From NCBI RefSeq assembly GCF_006965545.2, contig NZ_CP041372.2:992001-1056000 (forward strand): a DNA stretch of 64,000 bases, in the 5' to 3' direction. Source of the stretch: Paenalkalicoccus suaedae (GTDB lineage Bacteria > Bacillota > Bacilli > Bacillales > Salisediminibacteriaceae). The notes under the pieces were generated by a model. It made no database searches and was not told where the DNA came from. It worked only from the letters and a program-made list of their open reading frames with translations. Made by a program: the position numbers and the translations under genes. Of the stretch, positions 12,695-48,316 are shown piece by piece. Numbering within the stretch: the stretch's first letter is position 1; each line of letters starts with the position of its first letter.

Positions 12695-13642
12695 ATGATG
12701 TTATTGGGACGAGCAAGGCTCATCGCACTACTTGCATTGGCTGTTTACACAATTGTAATGCTGTATTTTTTGTATATTGGCTTTGGACGGAGCATGTCAC
12801 TTGGGGCAGGCGGCTTTAATCTTATACCTTCGACGATACCATTGTCTCTACCGATAAATGGAGTTACGTGGTATTGGTTTTATAATACTGCCAATTTTTT
12901 AGCCTTTATACCTTATGGATTCATTATTCCGCTACTTGTTAAAGTCCGTTTTCCTAAGATTATCGGTGTCTTTTTACTGGTCATTACGACACTTGAGCTT
13001 ATTCAATGGGCTACTGGCTTAGGTAGCTTTGACGCGGAGGATATTTTGACAAATGGGCTTGGTGTTACAATCGGTTACGTTGCTCAAGTTATTGGTCGAG
13101 GGAAATTGCCGTTAAGGCTCGTCACTTTCTCAAGAATAATCGTGATTAGCGTTGCCTTAGCCGTAACAACGATCACGATCGTGCATCTTTTCCATGTTGC
13201 CTATGCGAAGGTGACACAAGTTGAGCCTGGAGAGGCGTTCGGTCTTCATGAACGAACGCCAATGACCGAATCGTTTGCTTGGGAAACGGGGGAAGCACCT
13301 TTTACCATCAGAGGTGGCGAAGTGGACGTGACCACTAACTATGTACTAGTTGATAGTGAGCAACCAGACCGTGTAACGTATCAGTTGAATAGGAACTACT
13401 ACTCTCTTACTGGATTTATCGGCGTTCCCGATGATTTTCCTATATCAGAAGTGGAAGTCGAGATTAGCTTGAATGATGGAGAAGCTGGAGCGGATCTCTA
13501 CTTGTTAAGCAACATGACTCCAGGACCAAATTCCTTTGAAATGCCACTGCGAGAGGCCGACACACTCACTATCACGGTCCATCGAAATGATGCTACATCT
13601 ACGATTCTTTTATGGGACTTCATTTTGACAGAAAAGAAATAG
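12695..13642 (+). CDS. VanZ-like membrane protein with extracytoplasmic beta domain
   Basis: 315 residues. Residues ~1-170 contain about five membrane segments with the VanZ pattern (NGVTWYWFYNTANF, FIPYGFIIPLL, LELIQWATGLG, DILTNGLGVTIGY). VanZ proteins are best known from teicoplanin resistance but most have other or unknown roles. Residues ~190-315 form a soluble domain (YQLNRNYYSLTGFIGVPDD, then VEVEISLNDGEAG and LTITV) that resembles NPCBM-type carbohydrate-binding modules; that resemblance is my inference. ATG at 12695 or 12698 follows AGGAGAGAAGGA. The second copy at 1843 is a pseudogene, so this is the working one. Confidence 0.82.
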   Translation: MMLLGRARLIALLALAVYTIVMLYFLYIGFGRSMSLGAGGFNLIPSTIPLSLPINGVTWYWFYNTANFLAFIPYGFIIPLLVKVRFPKIIGVFLLVITTLELIQWATGLGSFDAEDILTNGLGVTIGYVAQVIGRGKLPLRLVTFSRIIVISVALAVTTITIVHLFHVAYAKVTQVEPGEAFGLHERTPMTESFAWETGEAPFTIRGGEVDVTTNYVLVDSEQPDRVTYQLNRNYYSLTGFIGVPDDFPISEVEVEISLNDGEAGADLYLLSNMTPGPNSFEMPLREADTLTITVHRNDATSTILLWDFILTEKK

Positions 13643-13662
13643 GATAGGTCATGCATGGATTG

Positions 13663-13694
13663 AAACACTTCCTAATCAGAGTAGGTGTTTTTTT
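13663..13694 (+). terminator. Terminator of the paiB-vanZ pair
   Basis: AAACACTT and AGGTGTTT form an 8-bp stem followed by seven T, about 20 bp after the vanZ stop. Confidence 0.75.
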
Positions 13695-13776
13695 CTTGCC
13701 AAAATATAACCATGATCTCATCATATATCCAATATTATCCATGCAAATACGTCACTCTAGGTCTTCCTTATCTTCA

Positions 13777-13797
13777 TTGACAGAATATGTTGTCGAA
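13777..13797 (+). promoter_or_regulatory. TTGACA with an overlapping 0A-box-like sequence
   Basis: TTGACA at 13777-13782 is followed 8 bp later by TGTCGAA (13791-13797), the core of the Spo0A-binding 0A box. No good -10 lies at 17 bp (GAATCG), so the promoter is uncertain. If real it would control the small membrane genes at 13900 and 14160 and be blocked by Spo0A~P. Confidence 0.3.
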
Positions 13798-13899
13798 AAG
13801 AATCGATATTTTCTTAAATACAGAAAAGTCCTTAGAGGCGAATAAACGAAAAAAGCGATATTCTTGAAGGGCATATAGGAGTGAGGCTGGAGAGGGATC

Positions 13900-14136
13900 A
13901 TGATGATAATAAAAGTAGTCGGCACGATATTCGCTGTGCTCACAATCATATCGGCAGTCCTTGGCTTGATCCAATCAACAGACACGTATACGAGCTACAT
14001 GCTTTTTTTCATGAGTATGGCAATCTTAAGTTTAGGGGTTGAGAGTCTACTAAAAAACAGACGATCCATCATTGGTGTTGCGAGCTTACTTGTGGGAGTT
14101 TTTCTTTTAGTAGTATGGGTAAGCGAGATTTTGTAA
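13900..14136 (+). CDS. Small membrane protein, DUF3953/YczI-like
   Basis: 78 residues with three hydrophobic segments (about 4-24, 33-48 and 57-76) and the central YMLFFMSMAILSLGVESL stretch seen in YczI-like proteins. ATG follows GGAGAGGGATC. It is followed closely by another small membrane gene and may share its transcript. Function unknown. Confidence 0.65.
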   Translation: MMIIKVVGTIFAVLTIISAVLGLIQSTDTYTSYMLFFMSMAILSLGVESLLKNRRSIIGVASLLVGVFLLVVWVSEIL

Positions 14137-16869: not shown

Positions 16870-16940
16870 GTGAGGAAAAGTAGTTTTTTTCTAAATATAA
16901 GCGGTGAGTTATTCTGCTTGGCGCATATGGACGTCCATTT

Positions 16941-17261
16941 GATGCAAAAAAAAGGCAACTGACGCAAACGTAGAGCTAGGTGATGCAACAAGCCCCTTGT
17001 TTGATGCAAATGAAACCCAATATGATGCATACCAATGCCACTTTGACGCAAGGTGATTTGAACTGATGCAAACGAAAGCCTAAGTGACGCGCTCACTTTT
17101 AAATTTGGTGCAAACGCTAAGCCAAGTTAAGCAAACGAGCGGTCATTAGACGCATGCCAAAATGGGGATACTCGAACGACTTTTCAACTGACGCACTTTC
17201 ACTTCGATCTGATGCATACATCGCTTCAAGTGAAGCAAACGGAACTTCGCTTGACGCAAAG
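16941..17261. repeat. Phased word array A: GAYGCAAAC every 20-21 bp
   Basis: Words of the form GATGCA/GACGCA (variants GGTGCA, TAAGCA, GAAGCA) start at 16941, 16961, 16982, 17003, 17024, 17045, 17065, 17086, 17107, 17128, 17149, 17190, 17211, 17232 and 17253. Steps are 20 or 21, with one place (near 17170) where the word has decayed. The spacer sequence varies. Mean period is 20.8 bp. The array begins 72 bp after the alcohol dehydrogenase terminator. Short frames within it are by-products of the 21-bp period. The rest of the gap to 17504 holds the paralogue of the ISL3 target at 17308-17350. Confidence 0.9.
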
Positions 17262-17504
17262 CAAACATATATACTTTTCAATACTCTAGAAAAATGCTGT
17301 CATCAAAATTTATACCTATGTACATCGTATCACTAATGGTAAAATTAGAGTGTATCTATTAACATTTTCCACGATGAGTGAGCTTAAAAAATGACTTCTT
17401 AGCTATCGCATTGTATAAGTGCTTGATTAAAAATGATAAGAACACTCACAGAAATCGAACACAATTAAACGTGCAATCATCCTTAAACAGGAGGGCTAGT
17501 AAAC

Positions 17505-17714
17505 ATGTTTTCTCGAATGAGACGTTTATCCACAATTTTGTTTATGGTAAGTGGGCTGTGTCTGTTCATTCTAGTTTTTCGTTTGCCTCATATACAGTTC
17601 GATAATTTTTATACCAGCTTTCCTTTTCTTTTACTTGTACTAACCACTTTATTAGCTATAACGATTCGCCTGATAGAAAAGGACGTGAAAGAGTACATCG
17701 ATTCGATTAGATAA
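17505..17714 (+). CDS. Small two-TM membrane protein, copy 2
   Basis: 69 residues behind ACAGGAGGG. Same length and layout as the product at 8935 (RMRRLST start, two hydrophobic segments, DVKEYIDSIR tail). Its upstream region keeps the uninterrupted version of the sequence into which ISL3 inserted at the other copy. Function unknown; membrane location inferred. Confidence 0.78.
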   Translation: MFSRMRRLSTILFMVSGLCLFILVFRLPHIQFDNFYTSFPFLLLVLTTLLAITIRLIEKDVKEYIDSIR

Positions 17715-17797
17715 TATAGATAAAAAACAATCAAGAGTAACTTGTACATCATTTTCTAAAAAAGTAGGTTCATGACGTGCGACTAGGGGGAGAAGCT

Positions 17798-18339: not shown

Positions 18340-18656
18340 GGTGTAAACCAAATTGCCTGACGCAAACGGAGGCCTAAGTGATGCAACAGACCCCTTAGTT
18401 GATGCAATCAAACAAGCATATGATGCATACCAATGGCACTTTGACTTAAAGCGATTTGAACCGACTCAAACGAAGTCCAAAGTGACGCATTCTCCTTTTG
18501 ATTTGATGCAAACGTAATCTAAATTGACTTATAAGAACCTTAAGTTGATGTAACGCAAACAAACCTCAATTTGAAGCAAGCGCCACCTGATTTCAAGCAA
18601 TTCCCACCTGATATGAAGCAAATAAATCTTCATTCGACAAAAACCACCTTCGACTA
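18340..18656. repeat. Phased word array B: GAYGCAAAC every 21 bp
   Basis: Words start at 18340 (GGTGTA), 18359, 18380, 18401, 18422, 18443 (GACTTA), 18463 (GACTCA), 18484, 18505, 18526, 18547, then after a 5-bp insertion 18573 (GAAGCA), 18594, 18615 and 18636. It is homologous to array A unit by unit: both have a word followed by TACCAATG and another preceding CCTAAGT. Begins 29 bp after a terminator. The remaining 18657-18882 shows only the AAAGGGGGCGG ribosome site of the next gene. Confidence 0.88.
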
Positions 18657-18882
18657 ACAAAAGTAACCCCCTATTAATTCACACCCAACATCCCCTCCAG
18701 CTTCAACGCAACCCACAGTAATCCTCACTTTCTATCCTCTACGCCCTGTAATCAAAATAATATAGTCAATAAATCTCCCCCTTTTTTATCATTTACACGG
18801 AAACATTTGCCATAATCAAAAGGAAGCTATAAAATATAAGTACTATCATAATTGGTCGATTCACGCACAAAGGGGGCGGAAT

Positions 18883-24215: not shown

Positions 24216-24247
24216 AGCACATGGTGAACAGCACCGTGTGCTTTTTT
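24216..24247 (+). terminator. Intrinsic terminator
   Basis: A perfect-length 11-bp stem (AGCACATGGTG with CACCGTGTGCT, one G-U), loop AACAG, six T. Confidence 0.88.
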
Positions 24248-24269
24248 AGTGTTCGTTTGAGGGGGGGAC

Positions 24270-24462
24270 GTACAAATCAGATCGACGTACGCGCAAACGG
24301 AAGTGGGAAGAGCAAACAAGATACGAAGACAAGCAAACGAAGTGCAAGCAGGTGCAAAGCACCATGTAGAACGTGCAAGCCAGGTCGACGGACGAGCAAA
24401 CAAAAGCCGAAGGAGCAAACGAGGTCCGCGGACACGTAAACGGAGTCCCAGGAGGTGCATAC
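24270..24462. repeat. Phased word array C: GCAAAC every 19-21 bp
   Basis: GCAAAC or close variants start at 24293, 24312, 24333, 24354 (GCAAAG), 24375 (GCAAGC), 24396, 24415, 24436 (GTAAAC) and 24457 (GCATAC), with GTACAA at 24270. Steps are 19, 21, 21, 21, 21, 19, 21, 21. It fills the gap between two facing terminators (24216-24247 on plus, 24475-24505 on minus), so it is probably not part of either mature transcript. Confidence 0.82.
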
Positions 24463-24474
24463 AAAGATCAAACC

Positions 24475-24505
24475 AACAAAAAGAACCGCACCCACGGCAC
24501 GATTC
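24475..24505 (-). terminator. Terminator of the minus-strand small membrane gene
   Basis: Read on the minus strand: GAATCG pairs with CGGTTC (one G-U), then TTTTTG, directly after the stop codon of the gene at 24506-24730. Confidence 0.55.
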
Positions 24506-31911: not shown

Positions 31912-31933
31912 CGAAGAGGGGTTGGCGAAAGAC

Positions 31934-32713
31934 ATGGATGTGAGTAAGCATAATAGTGTGGCGTGGGATAAGAAGGTTGCCGAGCGGTCGACGTATACGC
32001 AGGCTGTGTCTCGAGAAGTGATTGAGAGAGGGAAGCGGGGCGACTGGGAGATTGGTGTAACAACGACAAAATCGGTACCTCGGAACTGGTTCCCTTTAAA
32101 TATGGATGGGGTGAATGTGCTTTGCGTTGGATCTGGAGGTGGGCAACAGGCTCCGGTATTAGCGGCGGCGGGAGCGAGCGTGACCGTAGTTGATATCTCA
32201 TCCGCTCAGATTGCGAAGGATGAGTATGTCGCAAGAGAGAACGGACTCGAGCTTACGACTTATTTAGCCGATATGACAAAGTTAGACTTTTTGGAATCGG
32301 AGAGCTTTGATATGGTTGTCCACCCAGTATCGAATCTGTTTGTTGCAAATGTGCAAGCAGTGTGGGATGGGATTGCTCGCGTGTTGAAGCGTAACGGCGT
32401 ATTAATTGCGGGATTCACCAACCCATTGCTATGGATATTTGATGACGAGAGTGAGAGGCGCGGAATGTTAGATGTAAAGCATCCTATTCCATCATCAACG
32501 CTTGACCATTTACCTGCAGAAAAGCACGTCGAATTTTTGGAATCGAAGCAAACGATCGAATATGCCCATACATTGGAGCAACAAATCAAAGGTCAGTTGC
32601 AAGCTGGGCTAGTGATGACAGGGTTTTATGAGGATGACTTCGGTGGCAGTCGAATGATTGATACATATATTAAAACGTTTATGGCGACGCGAGCGGTGAA
32701 AATGAGAGTTTAA
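31934..32713 (+). CDS. Class I SAM-dependent methyltransferase
   Basis: 259 residues from ATG 31934; a TTG at 31922 is possible but abuts the ribosome site. The SAM motif I is VLCVGSGGGQQAPVLAAAG, with acidic strand-2 end VTVVDIS and motif IV SFDMVVHPVSNLF. Family members starting with HNSVAWDKKVAE are usually left as uncharacterised methyltransferases. Acceptor unknown. Terminator 20 bp after the stop. Confidence 0.85.
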   Translation: MDVSKHNSVAWDKKVAERSTYTQAVSREVIERGKRGDWEIGVTTTKSVPRNWFPLNMDGVNVLCVGSGGGQQAPVLAAAGASVTVVDISSAQIAKDEYVARENGLELTTYLADMTKLDFLESESFDMVVHPVSNLFVANVQAVWDGIARVLKRNGVLIAGFTNPLLWIFDDESERRGMLDVKHPIPSSTLDHLPAEKHVEFLESKQTIEYAHTLEQQIKGQLQAGLVMTGFYEDDFGGSRMIDTYIKTFMATRAVKMRV

Positions 32714-32733
32714 GGCATTTTTGAAACATGGAG

Positions 32734-32766
32734 AAGGACTTGGCAGAGGATAGCCTAGTCCTTTTA
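32734..32766 (+). terminator. Terminator of the methyltransferase gene
   Basis: AAGGACT-GGC pairs with GCC-AGTCCTT; TTTT follows. Confidence 0.82.
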
Positions 32767-32805
32767 GTTTGTTTAGGGAGTGTGAGTGTTTTATGGTGAG
32801 TGATT

Positions 32806-33245
32806 GCGTGAGTTGAAAGGCGAACTGCGCGAAAAAAGGCAGTAACCGCGCGAATCGAGGGGTGAACCGCGTGAGTTGAAGCCACAAATGCGTAAGCGTA
32901 AAAAAATCGCGCAAGTTGAATAGAGAATTGCGCGAAAAAAGGCAGTAACCGCGCGAATCGAGGGATGAACCGCGTGAGTTAGAGCCATAAATGCGTAAGC
33001 GTAAAAAAATCGCGCAAGTTGAAAGGTGAACTGCGCGAAAAAAGGCAGTAACCGCGCGAATCGAGGGATGAACCGCGTGAGTTAGAGCCATAAATGCGTA
33101 AGCGTAAAAAAACCGCGCAAGTTGAATAGCAAACTGCGCGAAAAAGAGCGTTAACCGCGCGACTCGAGGGCAGAACCGCGTAGGTTGAAGCCACAATCGC
33201 GTAAGCATAAAAAAATCGCGCGACTCGAACACCGAATCGCGCAAT
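32806..33245. repeat. Phased word array D: GCGYRA every 21 bp inside a 103-bp repeat
   Basis: 22 words (GCGCGA, GCGTGA, GCGTAA, GCGCAA) start at 32806, 32827, 32848, 32869, 32890, 32909, 32930, 32951, 32972, 32993, 33012, 33033, 33054, 33075, 33096, 33115, 33136, 33157, 33178, 33199, 33218 and 33239. Steps are four of 21 and then one of 19, giving a 103-bp unit repeated four times (starting 32827, 32930, 33033, 33136). Because 103 is not a multiple of 3, no coding frame is kept. It lies between the methyltransferase terminator and the convergent arsA-like gene. Confidence 0.95.
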
Positions 33246-33268
33246 CCCATTAATTAAACTAACCTAAC

Positions 33269-35005
33269 CTACACTTCCAGCAATACCTTTAACTGATCAA
33301 TCCCAACAATCGCATCAGCCTGCCATGGAACGATTGCAGCGTTCGTTGCTTCCTTTTCCACTACGCGCTTTATCCACTGTTGTTCTGCTAAAGCACGATT
33401 TTGCAGGAGTGGATCTCTCGTTTCTGTCGCGCCGAAGCTTTGGTTAATGATCCACCAAGATGGCACGATGGAAGCTCGTTTTAAATCCTCTTGAAGACGG
33501 CTTGCTTCAAATACTGGTGTAGCTTCCGGTAAGGTAACAAGTGCGACCGTTGTAAACGCTGGGTCACGGAGTTTTGGTAATAGCTCTTTTACAGAGCGAT
33601 CCAAGTTGCCAGCTGCTCGCTCTACTTCGCGATGGTAGGACTGAGCGGCATCTAATAATAGGAGCGTGTGTCCTGTTGGAGCTGTGTCAATGACAACAAA
33701 CGAATCCTGTACGTCATCAACAACCTTAGCAAAGGCTTGGAAGACGGCGATTTCCTCTGTGCAAGGGGAATCGAGGTCTTCTTTCATAAATGCGAGCTCA
33801 TCCTCTGATAGAGATTCCCCTGCTGTTTGTAGCACGCGCGCTTTATAGGCCTCGACCTCTTCCTTTGGATCGATGCGACTAACTTGCAAGAACTCGTGAT
33901 CTTGAACGAGATTACCAACATGTGCAGTTGGGTCCGTCGTCGTTAAATGAACGCGATGACCTTTTTCCGCAAGTCCGACGGCAATTGCACAGGCCATCGT
34001 CGTTTTACCAACGCCACCCTTGCCCATTGTCATAATAACGCCTTCGGATTTTTGAGATACGTGATGAACGAGCTCTTGCACGCCAGGAATGGCAGGAAGA
34101 TCAACGGCTTCTAATGCACGAGGCACGTCTGTATTTTCGCCAAATGCACGAAGGGCATCAAGTCCTGTGATCGTATAGCCGACTAGTGGGATGTAGCTAG
34201 CCTGGTCATCAATCGTGTCTAGTACCTTGCGCTGTTTATTCTCAAGAGCAATAGCTGTTGGATCATCGGAATTACGCTCAAAAACCCCGTTTATAATCAG
34301 CTGTTGATTAAGAATCCCAAGATCACCGAGCTCCTTACTCGCACGATTCGCTTCTTGAATTGTTGCTTCATCTGGACGCGCAACGAGCACGAGCGTCGTT
34401 TGCGAGGAGTCCGCCAATGCTTTAACCGCCTGCTCATAGCTTTCCTTTTTCGCCTTCAGGCCAGAAACAGGGCCAAGACAGGAGGCACCATGCTCATTTT
34501 CATCTAAAAAATCACTCCACGCAGAAGGTAGCTGGAGGAGGCGAAGAGTGTGACCAGTCGGTGCGGTGTCAAACACGATATGATCATAGCGATCGGTATG
34601 GGTGTTGTCTGTTAACAGTTGCGTAAATTCATCAAACGCCGCAACCTCCACCGTACATGCTCCAGACATTTGCTCTTCCATCTGATCGACAGCGGGCTTC
34701 GGGAGCTTATCGCGATAAGGACCGATAACGCGGTCTCGATATGCTTGCGCCGCTTCTTCAGGATCAAGATTAGCAGCATCAAGATTCGCTACGTTTGGCA
34801 CAGGTGCCGGTGCGTTCGATAGCTCCACTCCAAACACATCCTGGAGGTTAGACGCAGGATCGGTACTCACAATTAACACGCGCTTGCCAGCATCAGCTAG
34901 TGCAATCGCGGTTGCAGCGGCAGTTGACGTTTTACCGACTCCACCTTTCCCTGTGAAAAATAGGTATGGGGTGTGTCCAAGCTGTGTAGGTGTAAATCTC
35001 TTCAT
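33269..35005 (-). CDS. arsA: ArsA arsenite-pump ATPase
   Basis: 578 residues in two homologous halves, each with a Walker A (FFTGKGGVGKTST, near 20; MTMGKGGVGKTTM, near 330) and the DTAPTGHT signal-transduction motif. The metalloid-binding cysteines are all present: C117 (SGACTVE), C176 (GASCLGP) and C415 (DSPCTEE). ArsA hydrolyses ATP to drive As(III)/Sb(III) export through a membrane partner. No arsB or acr3 gene lies in this window. RBS AAAGGAG. It is 15 bp downstream of arsD on the same strand. Confidence 0.95.
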   Translation of the reverse strand: MKRFTPTQLGHTPYLFFTGKGGVGKTSTAAATAIALADAGKRVLIVSTDPASNLQDVFGVELSNAPAPVPNVANLDAANLDPEEAAQAYRDRVIGPYRDKLPKPAVDQMEEQMSGACTVEVAAFDEFTQLLTDNTHTDRYDHIVFDTAPTGHTLRLLQLPSAWSDFLDENEHGASCLGPVSGLKAKKESYEQAVKALADSSQTTLVLVARPDEATIQEANRASKELGDLGILNQQLIINGVFERNSDDPTAIALENKQRKVLDTIDDQASYIPLVGYTITGLDALRAFGENTDVPRALEAVDLPAIPGVQELVHHVSQKSEGVIMTMGKGGVGKTTMACAIAVGLAEKGHRVHLTTTDPTAHVGNLVQDHEFLQVSRIDPKEEVEAYKARVLQTAGESLSEDELAFMKEDLDSPCTEEIAVFQAFAKVVDDVQDSFVVIDTAPTGHTLLLLDAAQSYHREVERAAGNLDRSVKELLPKLRDPAFTTVALVTLPEATPVFEASRLQEDLKRASIVPSWWIINQSFGATETRDPLLQNRALAEQQWIKRVVEKEATNAAIVPWQADAIVGIDQLKVLLEV

Positions 35006-35384: not shown

Positions 35385-35426
35385 TATATAATCATTTGAT
35401 TATATACTAACGTAAATGCGAGGCAA
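35385..35426 (-). promoter_or_regulatory. arsDA promoter with ArsR-type operator
   Basis: A perfect 10-2-10 inverted repeat (TATATAATCA-TT-TGATTATATA, 35385-35406) overlaps a minus-strand -10 TATAAT (plus positions 35399-35404), with TTGCCT as -35 at 35421-35426, spacing 16. The ATCA...TGAT arms match operators of ArsR/SmtB repressors. The repressor gene itself is not in the window. Confidence 0.75.
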
Positions 35427-35434
35427 TCACAACT

Positions 35435-35516
35435 GTGAAGGGTGGAAGAAGTGAAGAGAAAGGTTGACGTTGTGAAGAGAACGAACCAAGTAGTGACGAG
35501 CAAGTACGAAGTGAAA
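35435..35516. repeat. Weak word array: GTGAAG
   Basis: GTGAAG or GTGACG/GTGAAA begin at 35435, 35451, 35472, 35493 and 35511 (steps 16, 21, 21, 18). Spacing is less regular than in the other arrays, so membership of the same class is uncertain. Confidence 0.35.
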
Positions 35517-35551
35517 TCGTAAAGTAATCAAAGCAATAGTAAATAATAAGA

Positions 35552-37100: not shown

Positions 37101-37134
37101 ATGTCGTTACTTTGATTTTGTGTACGCGCAAGTC

Positions 37135-37380
37135 CATAAATCCAAAATGCGGAACATAAAACTTGGATTAGGAACATAACTCCTCAATCAGGAACATAAA
37201 TGCCTTAAAGCATGCTACAAAGTCCATAAATCCAAAATGGGGAACATAAACATTGGATTAGGAACATAACTCCTCAATCGGGAACATAAATGTCCTTAAG
37301 CATGCTACAAAGACCATAAAGTCAAAACACGGAACACAACCATGTGTATTAGGCACATAACTCAAAAATGCGGAACATAA
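37135..37380. repeat. Phased word array E: CATAA every 20 bp inside a 90-bp repeat
   Basis: CATAA (often GGAACATAA) begins at 37135, 37155, 37175, 37195, 37225, 37245, 37265, 37285, 37315, 37335 (CACAA), 37356 and 37376. The pattern 20-20-20-30 gives a 90-bp unit (starts 37135, 37225, 37315), two near-identical copies and a divergent third. Begins 35 bp after a terminator. Confidence 0.9.
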
Positions 37381-37451
37381 CTCTGTGAGAATGAAAGATT
37401 TTAAGCTGACTGGCACTTTATTAACCTATGTTTTTATGTTGTTTAGGGAGG

Positions 37452-37645
37452 TTATCCGTAATTAACACATGATAATCCGGAAAGGTAGTGGGTTATCCAC
37501 ATTTTAAGTGGGGTTATCCGAAAAAGCGACGAGATTATCCGGTATCAAGGCAAGGTTATCCGGAAATGTAGAGAAGTTATCCAGAAAAGAAGCAAAGTAA
37601 TTCAGAAATACGATAAAATAACCCTCACATGGCAAGTAGTTATCC
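37452..37645. repeat. Phased word array F: TTATCC every 21 bp
   Basis: TTATCC (consensus GGTTATCCGGAA) starts at 37452, 37473 (TAATCC), 37493, 37514, 37535, 37556, 37577, 37598 (TAATTC), 37619 (TAACCC) and 37640. Nine steps total 188 bp, mean 20.9. It follows array E and stops 30 bp before the scr promoter. The same word inverted forms array H. Confidence 0.9.
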
Positions 37646-37674
37646 CCACTTCCAACGTTTACTAAAATCCGTTG

Positions 37675-48121: not shown

Positions 48122-48171
48122 GAGAATATAGAGGAAGGTAGTTATCAAGTGAGATGCTTGTAAAGCATATT

Positions 48172-48242
48172 CGGATAATGGAGGGCCGAAAGCGGATAAT
48201 CGAAGCCAATTCTCGGATAATCAAAGCCCCGCTTCAGTTAAT
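48172..48242. repeat. Phased word array H: CGGATAAT every 21 bp
   Basis: CGGATAAT starts at 48172, 48193, 48214 and, degraded to CAGTTAAT, 48235. All steps are 21. It is the reverse complement of the array F word ATTATCCG. It lies between two facing terminators (48077-48121 and 48279-48316). Confidence 0.8.
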
Positions 48243-48278
48243 CAAAGCACACCCTCTCACCAACACGACATCCAACAC

Positions 48279-48316
48279 AAAAAAAGCTGGGACAAATTAA
48301 TCGCATTTGTCCCAGC
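48279..48316 (-). terminator. Terminator of the L,D-transpeptidase gene
   Basis: GCTGGGACAAA/TTTGTCCCAGC perfect 11-bp stem; on the minus strand seven T follow. Confidence 0.9.

Follow-up and report, generated by a model that had tools for sequence, protein, structure and literature searches.

A gap between two converging genes on the Paenalkalicoccus suaedae chromosome is filled by 22 CG-rich words set at fixed steps, which raises the question of what such a geometry in noncoding DNA is for and whether it belongs to this locus alone. The question extends well beyond this genome, as why many Bacillus genomes carry repeat families of constant size but unrelated sequence is still open in the literature (PMC8161180). 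Here we describe the array (Array D) within its window, the whole 64,000-nucleotide stretch of contig NZ_CP041372.2 that was analysed, and follow its geometry through the genome, searched as a 3.97-Mb chromosome and two small contigs with 844 kb of the chromosome sampled for an array survey, and through related and distant genomes.

Organisation of Array D and its surroundings

The features at the locus, by position in the window, are as follows.

31922..32713, plus strand: upstream gene for a SAM-dependent methyltransferase, placed to class I but not to a subfamily, with no model above its cutoff
32728..32770, plus strand: intrinsic terminator of the methyltransferase gene, -15.6 kcal/mol, U run at 32762, ending before Array D
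32802..33255, plus strand: Array D, 22 words (consensus AAYYGCGYRAGTTGAAGGGNG) spaced 21 bp apart, except that each fifth word is followed by a 19-bp step
32802..32904, plus strand: pentad 1 (21+21+21+21+19), A-rich 19-bp unit at 32886-32904
32905..33007, plus strand: pentad 2, A-rich 19-bp unit at 32989-33007
33008..33110, plus strand: pentad 3, A-rich 19-bp unit at 33092-33110
33111..33213, plus strand: pentad 4, A-rich 19-bp unit at 33195-33213
32899..33145, minus strand: three weaker terminator-like hairpins for minus-strand transcripts, U runs at 33112, 33009 and 32906, 103 bp apart
33208..33248, minus strand: predicted intrinsic terminator for arsA, composed of Array D words 21 and 22 together with the A-tract from the 19-bp unit; the hairpin (-22.1 kcal/mol) precedes a U run
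33269..35005, minus strand: arsA, arsenical pump-driving ATPase, downstream and convergent (TIGR04291, 827.8 bits against a cutoff of 650)

Unit parsing places the 19-bp steps after words 5, 10, 15 and 20, with words 21 and 22 trailing the fourth pentad, and Tandem Repeats Finder, which is independent of that parsing, returned a period of 103 with 4.0 copies, 89% matches and a score of 626. Both results confirm the description in the initial annotation of 22 CG-rich words arranged in four 103-bp units of 21+21+21+21+19 bp. Its boundaries (32806-33245) were correct to within 4-10 bases, the array running from 32802 to 33255, and the CG-richness it emphasised is a property of the words, the spacers being purine-rich rather than CG-rich. 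The pair pattern AANCGCGYRA-11N-AANCGCGYRA matches the genome 287 times against 4 matches for the reversed control, which excludes a chance origin of the word spacing. Two further features had been missed: the last two words form the minus-strand terminator of arsA, and other words are found in the same geometry.

The view that the 103-bp repeat is noncoding and its long frames artefactual also held, as the coding model calls no gene within Array D and the 213-aa minus-strand ORF that overlaps it (32609-33250) is mechanical. This ORF is the one observation in favour of remnants of protein-coding heptad repeats, in which 21 bp would stand for seven codons, an origin whose probability we regard as practically negligible. 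No reading frame survives the 19- and 20-bp steps or the 103-bp period, which refutes a coding heptad repeat, and the spacing in multiples of three within an open frame that marks such repeats was not found. Self-similarity of the intergenic DNA in the 844-kb sample peaks chiefly at lags of 20, 21 and their multiples, whereas coding repeats give multiples of three. Curvature, raised earlier as a property to check, is unremarkable as predicted for Array D (z -1.2) and was set aside as its basis; it is strong only in some arrays, mostly those of CGGATAAT, by an estimate from approximate wedge parameters in which bends tend to accumulate for every phased repeat.

Word spacing across families and genomes

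Array D is not a local oddity. The chromosome is estimated to hold about 300 such arrays, a rough extrapolation from the 65 arrays with at least three words in the 844-kb sample, and Array D belongs to a class that has already been published (PMC8161180). Used as a query, Array D gave 49 matches in the genome. At least ten array words are in use, namely CGGATAAT, TGAYGCAA, GCGCGA (the Array D family), GGTCAATAA, GTGCWAAA, GAGCAAAC, GTGCATT and GAAGTGACGCGCAA, together with GGAACATAA, GGTTCATAA and GGTACATAA at period 20. Further arrays in the window are listed below.

16940..17275, plus strand: sister array of word TGAYGCAA, 104-bp higher-order repeat with one 20-bp step
18355..18660, plus strand: second TGAYGCAA-type array
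24232..24500, plus strand: sister array of word GAGCAAAC, 103-bp repeat (19+21+42+21)
35403..35546, plus strand: period-21 array of word GAAGTGAAGAG
37130..37380, plus strand: period-20 array of word GGAACATAA, 90-bp higher-order repeat
37450..37660, plus strand: period-21 array of word GTTATCC
48140..48297, plus strand: period-21 array of word CGGATAAT

The proposal that 103 bp represents a whole number of helical turns remains the best reading of this period, as word steps in the sampled genome are almost all about two, three or four turns long. Across 13 words, measured in noncoding DNA as the distance of up to 45 bp to the next same-strand copy, 244 of 249 same-word steps fell at 19-21, 31 or 39-42 bp, with five exceptions of 11, 18, 22, 23 and 44 bp and not one of the 249 at 12-17, 24-30 or 32-38 bp. 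This whole-turn distribution matches the prediction for words placed on the same face of the DNA. The period-20 families build higher-order repeats of 90, 70 and 110 bp, which fit combinations of 20- and 30-bp steps, and they imply 10.0 bp per turn where other families imply 10.3-10.5. In six of the seven 52-bp arrays examined in this genome the top sub-periods are 21 and 31 bp, equal to two and three turns; as a general account of the 52-bp class, 21+31 fails, because three 52-bp arrays in three other genomes lack these sub-periods.

The short step obeys a strict rule. Over 24 GCGCGA loci holding 527 words, 397 steps measure 21 bp, 94 measure 19 bp and 6 have other lengths, and each of the 75 runs of four 21-bp steps (75/75) is followed by a 19-bp step, in a set where some loci were picked by similarity to Array D, which favours the pentad register. 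The rule also holds at loci, L150, L153 and L154 among them, that were identified solely by the 21-bp pair pattern. The spacing is rigidly kept between about two dozen arrays within one genome, the level at which it was compared, and the order of words within the pentad is likewise unchanged. Units also retain their identity between loci, with the same-position unit being the best match for four of the five and the A-rich 19-bp unit coming last. Outside the GCGCGA family, GTGCATT steps in this genome read 19, 21, 21, 21, 21, 19, 21, 21, 21, 21, and an array of the word TCAGC in another Bacillales genus (G231) repeats 21, 21, 21, 21, 19. With repeats of 103 bp for GAGCAAAC and 104 bp for TGATGCA, these words match the layout or come close to it. 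The short-step correction is not universal, as CGGATAAT arrays run for up to 12 straight 21-bp steps without one.

A search of 59 other genomes of the family and order recovered no copy of the Array D sequence, and the CGGATAAT pair pattern picks out true arrays in a small number of distant genomes (G038, G167, G231, G087 and G123), which together indicate that a similar geometry recurs with changing words. Several individual arrays were also recorded. In another genus (L133, G167:C79, 9672-10186) the word switches from TATGCGTGGC to TTATCCGC while the spacers remain similar and the 21-bp steps are kept, possibly a snapshot of word replacement. Dense 21- and 22-bp arrays occur in G038 (L127-L129), including a 22-bp family of TTATCTACCACTTCCGTGTCGA, with short steps of 18-19 bp among those of 21 bp. 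A genome of the same family (L067, G001, 13555-14072) carries a near-perfect 20-bp array of CGGACAAATCCAAAAAGTTA that is apparently young.

Within P. suaedae, period-20 arrays of GGTACATAA/GGTTCATAA (L023, 10247-10471 and 13494-13688; L025, 4881-5021, 7402-7542 and 10903-11065; L026, 15869-16047) occur in both orientations with a common flank resembling GTGGCAGTTTGGCAATTGAGATTTT at one end, and because of this shared flank they may represent copies of a dispersed, mobile-like element that carries the array inside it. The phased word arrays are not matched by a 53-bp repeat (L021, G000:C3, about 17475-17735, genome position 2417475) that contains an inverted repeat, AGCTCTTCGAGCT. Both small contigs (L147, G000:C1:1-20000, and L148, G000:C2, 5820 bp) are 100% identical to Bacillus subtilis plasmids, one of the pLS20 type and one a 5.8-kb plasmid, and the chromosome bears no sign of B. 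subtilis; culture or assembly contamination or recent transfer are possible origins.

Placement, strand and transcription termination

Arrays are concentrated where genes converge. Among intergenic spacers of at least 100 bp, with genes called by a simple hexamer model whose single calls may be off, those occupied by an array number 26 of the 58 between convergent genes, 29 of the 202 in tandem context and 3 of the 86 between divergent genes (P = 1e-9 for convergent against divergent, P = 2.6e-6 for convergent against tandem). Arrays in tandem context showed no tendency to lie nearer the upstream gene (18 of 31, P = 0.47). Such a distribution is relevant to a neutral or selfish satellite, in which 20-21-bp units would be amplified by slippage and unequal exchange and kept, functionless, wherever they do no harm. 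Harmless placement would likewise deplete divergent, promoter-bearing spacers, and higher-order repeats, varied copy number, species-specific words and near-perfect young arrays in other genomes are all expected of a satellite. Neutral slippage nevertheless fails to explain the narrow step sizes shared by unrelated words, the 75/75 rule, the 4x21+19 arrangement in another genus or the convergent-over-tandem enrichment, nor does it explain how words outlive their spacers, and we consider a satellite unlikely.

The persistence of words over spacers is seen when arrays of opposite orientation are compared. With the origin and terminus set from GC skew and gene strand, 17 GCGCGA arrays are co-directional with the replication fork and 6 are opposed; an orientation that follows replication is suggestive, the 17-to-6 count being biased by loci picked in part for similarity to Array D. 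Between the opposed and co-directional arrays, core identity is 0.64 with the selection anchors excluded and spacer identity is 0.33, and the purine content of the spacers is 60-81% in co-directional and 19-60% in opposed arrays. It seems that the spacers have drifted towards the base composition of the replication strand on which they lie, with words and step lengths left unchanged, and we read this pattern as selection acting on words and geometry. Some homogenisation of arrays by exchange may have occurred, and shared ancestry of the GCGCGA arrays could account for their rigid pentad in the absence of ongoing selection.

The GCGCGA word is nearly self-complementary, and because of this core Array D folds as RNA better than shuffled sequence (z -6.4). 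The hairpin predicted to end arsA transcripts begins 21 nt past the arsA stop and has the GC-rich stem and U run of an intrinsic terminator. Co-directional GCGCGA arrays carry terminator-like sites only on the strand that opposes the fork, with at least one site at 14 of 17 loci, and in the six opposite-oriented arrays 7 of 11 such sites also oppose the fork. These observations, together with the minus-strand arsA terminator and the three further hairpin/U-run sites spaced 103 bp apart on that strand, favour a tandem bank of intrinsic terminators that would halt transcription running against the replication fork. In such a bank, adjacent GCGCGA words would form the two arms of each hairpin, and the U run on the opposite strand would come from the A-tract in the 19-bp unit. 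As the primary role of the arrays this is rather unlikely, since the non-palindromic families share spacing and placement yet show no consistent gain in folding over shuffled sequence. The upstream methyltransferase gene already has its own terminator ahead of Array D, several opposite-oriented arrays lose sites, and purine-rich leading-strand spacers alone can yield the strand bias. Tandem terminators are most likely a secondary property of the GCGCGA word family. Stopping fork-opposing transcription may be a real secondary use of these arrays, and for arsA it very probably is; it does not explain those families that lack hairpins. Tandem terminators and the neutral satellite remain the serious rivals to the reading that we prefer, a lattice of docked protein.

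Folding also bears on whether the repeat acts as RNA, either as a transcribed small RNA or as a protein sponge, roles suggested for the 52-nt repeats of Bacillus coagulans, which appear in RNA-seq (PMC8625621). The good folding of GCGCGA arrays agrees with this, but Array D lies past the upstream terminator and behind that of arsA, most word families are unstructured, and it is not obvious what a spacing of two DNA turns would mean to an RNA, so that an RNA role is very improbable. RNA structure as a general basis was ruled out, as consistent folding is limited to the self-complementary family and a few single arrays. None of the known RNA families was detected in the 64-kb window.

A proposed docking lattice and its relation to known repeats

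The reading that we prefer, tentatively and at somewhat less than an even chance, is that Array D is a phased docking lattice for a putative protein at the ends of transcription units. Words would recur on nearly one face of the helix every two turns, and one short step per five words would bring the total back to about ten turns. Between transcription units, and above all at convergent genes, an architectural or boundary protein with sequence specificity could then dock cooperatively, and its job would be to isolate or constrain the converging units. The nearly self-complementary word would allow the GCGCGA family to fold as RNA in addition, and in Array D this fold would end the arsDA transcript. 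The pentad rule, the whole-turn steps, the conservation of words over spacers, the convergent placement and the unfolded non-palindromic families support the lattice; the straight CGGATAAT arrays and the difference between 10.0 and 10.3-10.5 bp per turn among families stand against it. Given the variety of words among families and species, no single conserved protein can recognise all of them by sequence. A broader and more doubtful extension is a Bacillales chromosomal lattice system, in which a putative protein or fast-evolving protein family would sit on two-turn words, use the 19-bp step to measure a five-word, ten-turn repeat and mark or seal the gaps between converging genes. If this were true, a fixed oligomer would have the pentad as its footprint, words would be free to change while the geometry holds, and the arrays would constitute a new layer of bacterial chromosome organisation.

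Comparison with known systems helps to place the array. CRISPR and TIGR arrays alternate constant and variable segments regularly, as Array D does, and CRISPR spacers are unique, of constant length and set between near-identical repeats. The spacers of Array D share a loose consensus and recur between units, and the estimated number of arrays is a few hundred per genome; a CRISPR- or TIGR-like array was ruled out by the lack of unique spacers. REP/BIME elements of enterobacteria are likewise dispersed, intergenic, present in many copies and close to gene 3' ends, with proposed roles in termination and DNA topology. REP/BIME mosaics are made of palindromic units of about 20-40 bp, around 35 bp in BIMEs, in contrast to the direct 21-bp words seen here, most families of which do not self-pair; they are also characterised by the binding of gyrase or IHF.

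The closest relatives are the noncoding tandem repeats of Bacillus, which have a constant size of 20-21 or 52 nt and a variable sequence (Subirana and Messeguer 2021, PMC8161180; also PMC6749651 and PMC8625621). In that work several families were described per species, each with short conserved words, the correspondence to two helical turns was remarked upon, and the function was left unexplained, with a DNA-protein polymer at the nucleoid or small RNAs put forward (PMC8161180). Array D shares the noncoding unit, at 21 bp and intergenic with one step in five shortened to 19 bp, and the short conserved word inside a variable repeat. Its genome holds several families that agree in size and differ in sequence, and its sequence is species-specific, while the CGGATAAT word recurs in a few distant genomes. 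The 52-nt repeats of the same authors are also constant in size, and 52 is half of 103-104. The terms 'convergent', 'intergenic', 'orientation' and 'higher-order' are absent from the text of PMC8161180, and the authors' 2020 J Bacteriol paper may report some of these aspects. Relative to that text, the 4x21+19 pentad and its recurrence over words and genera are new, as are the whole-turn step statistics including 31 bp, the convergent-end enrichment and the strand-dependent spacers. We judge Array D to be a structured variant of this published constant-size class, for which a concrete and testable model is provided by the pentad rule in combination with the whole-turn statistics and convergent placement.
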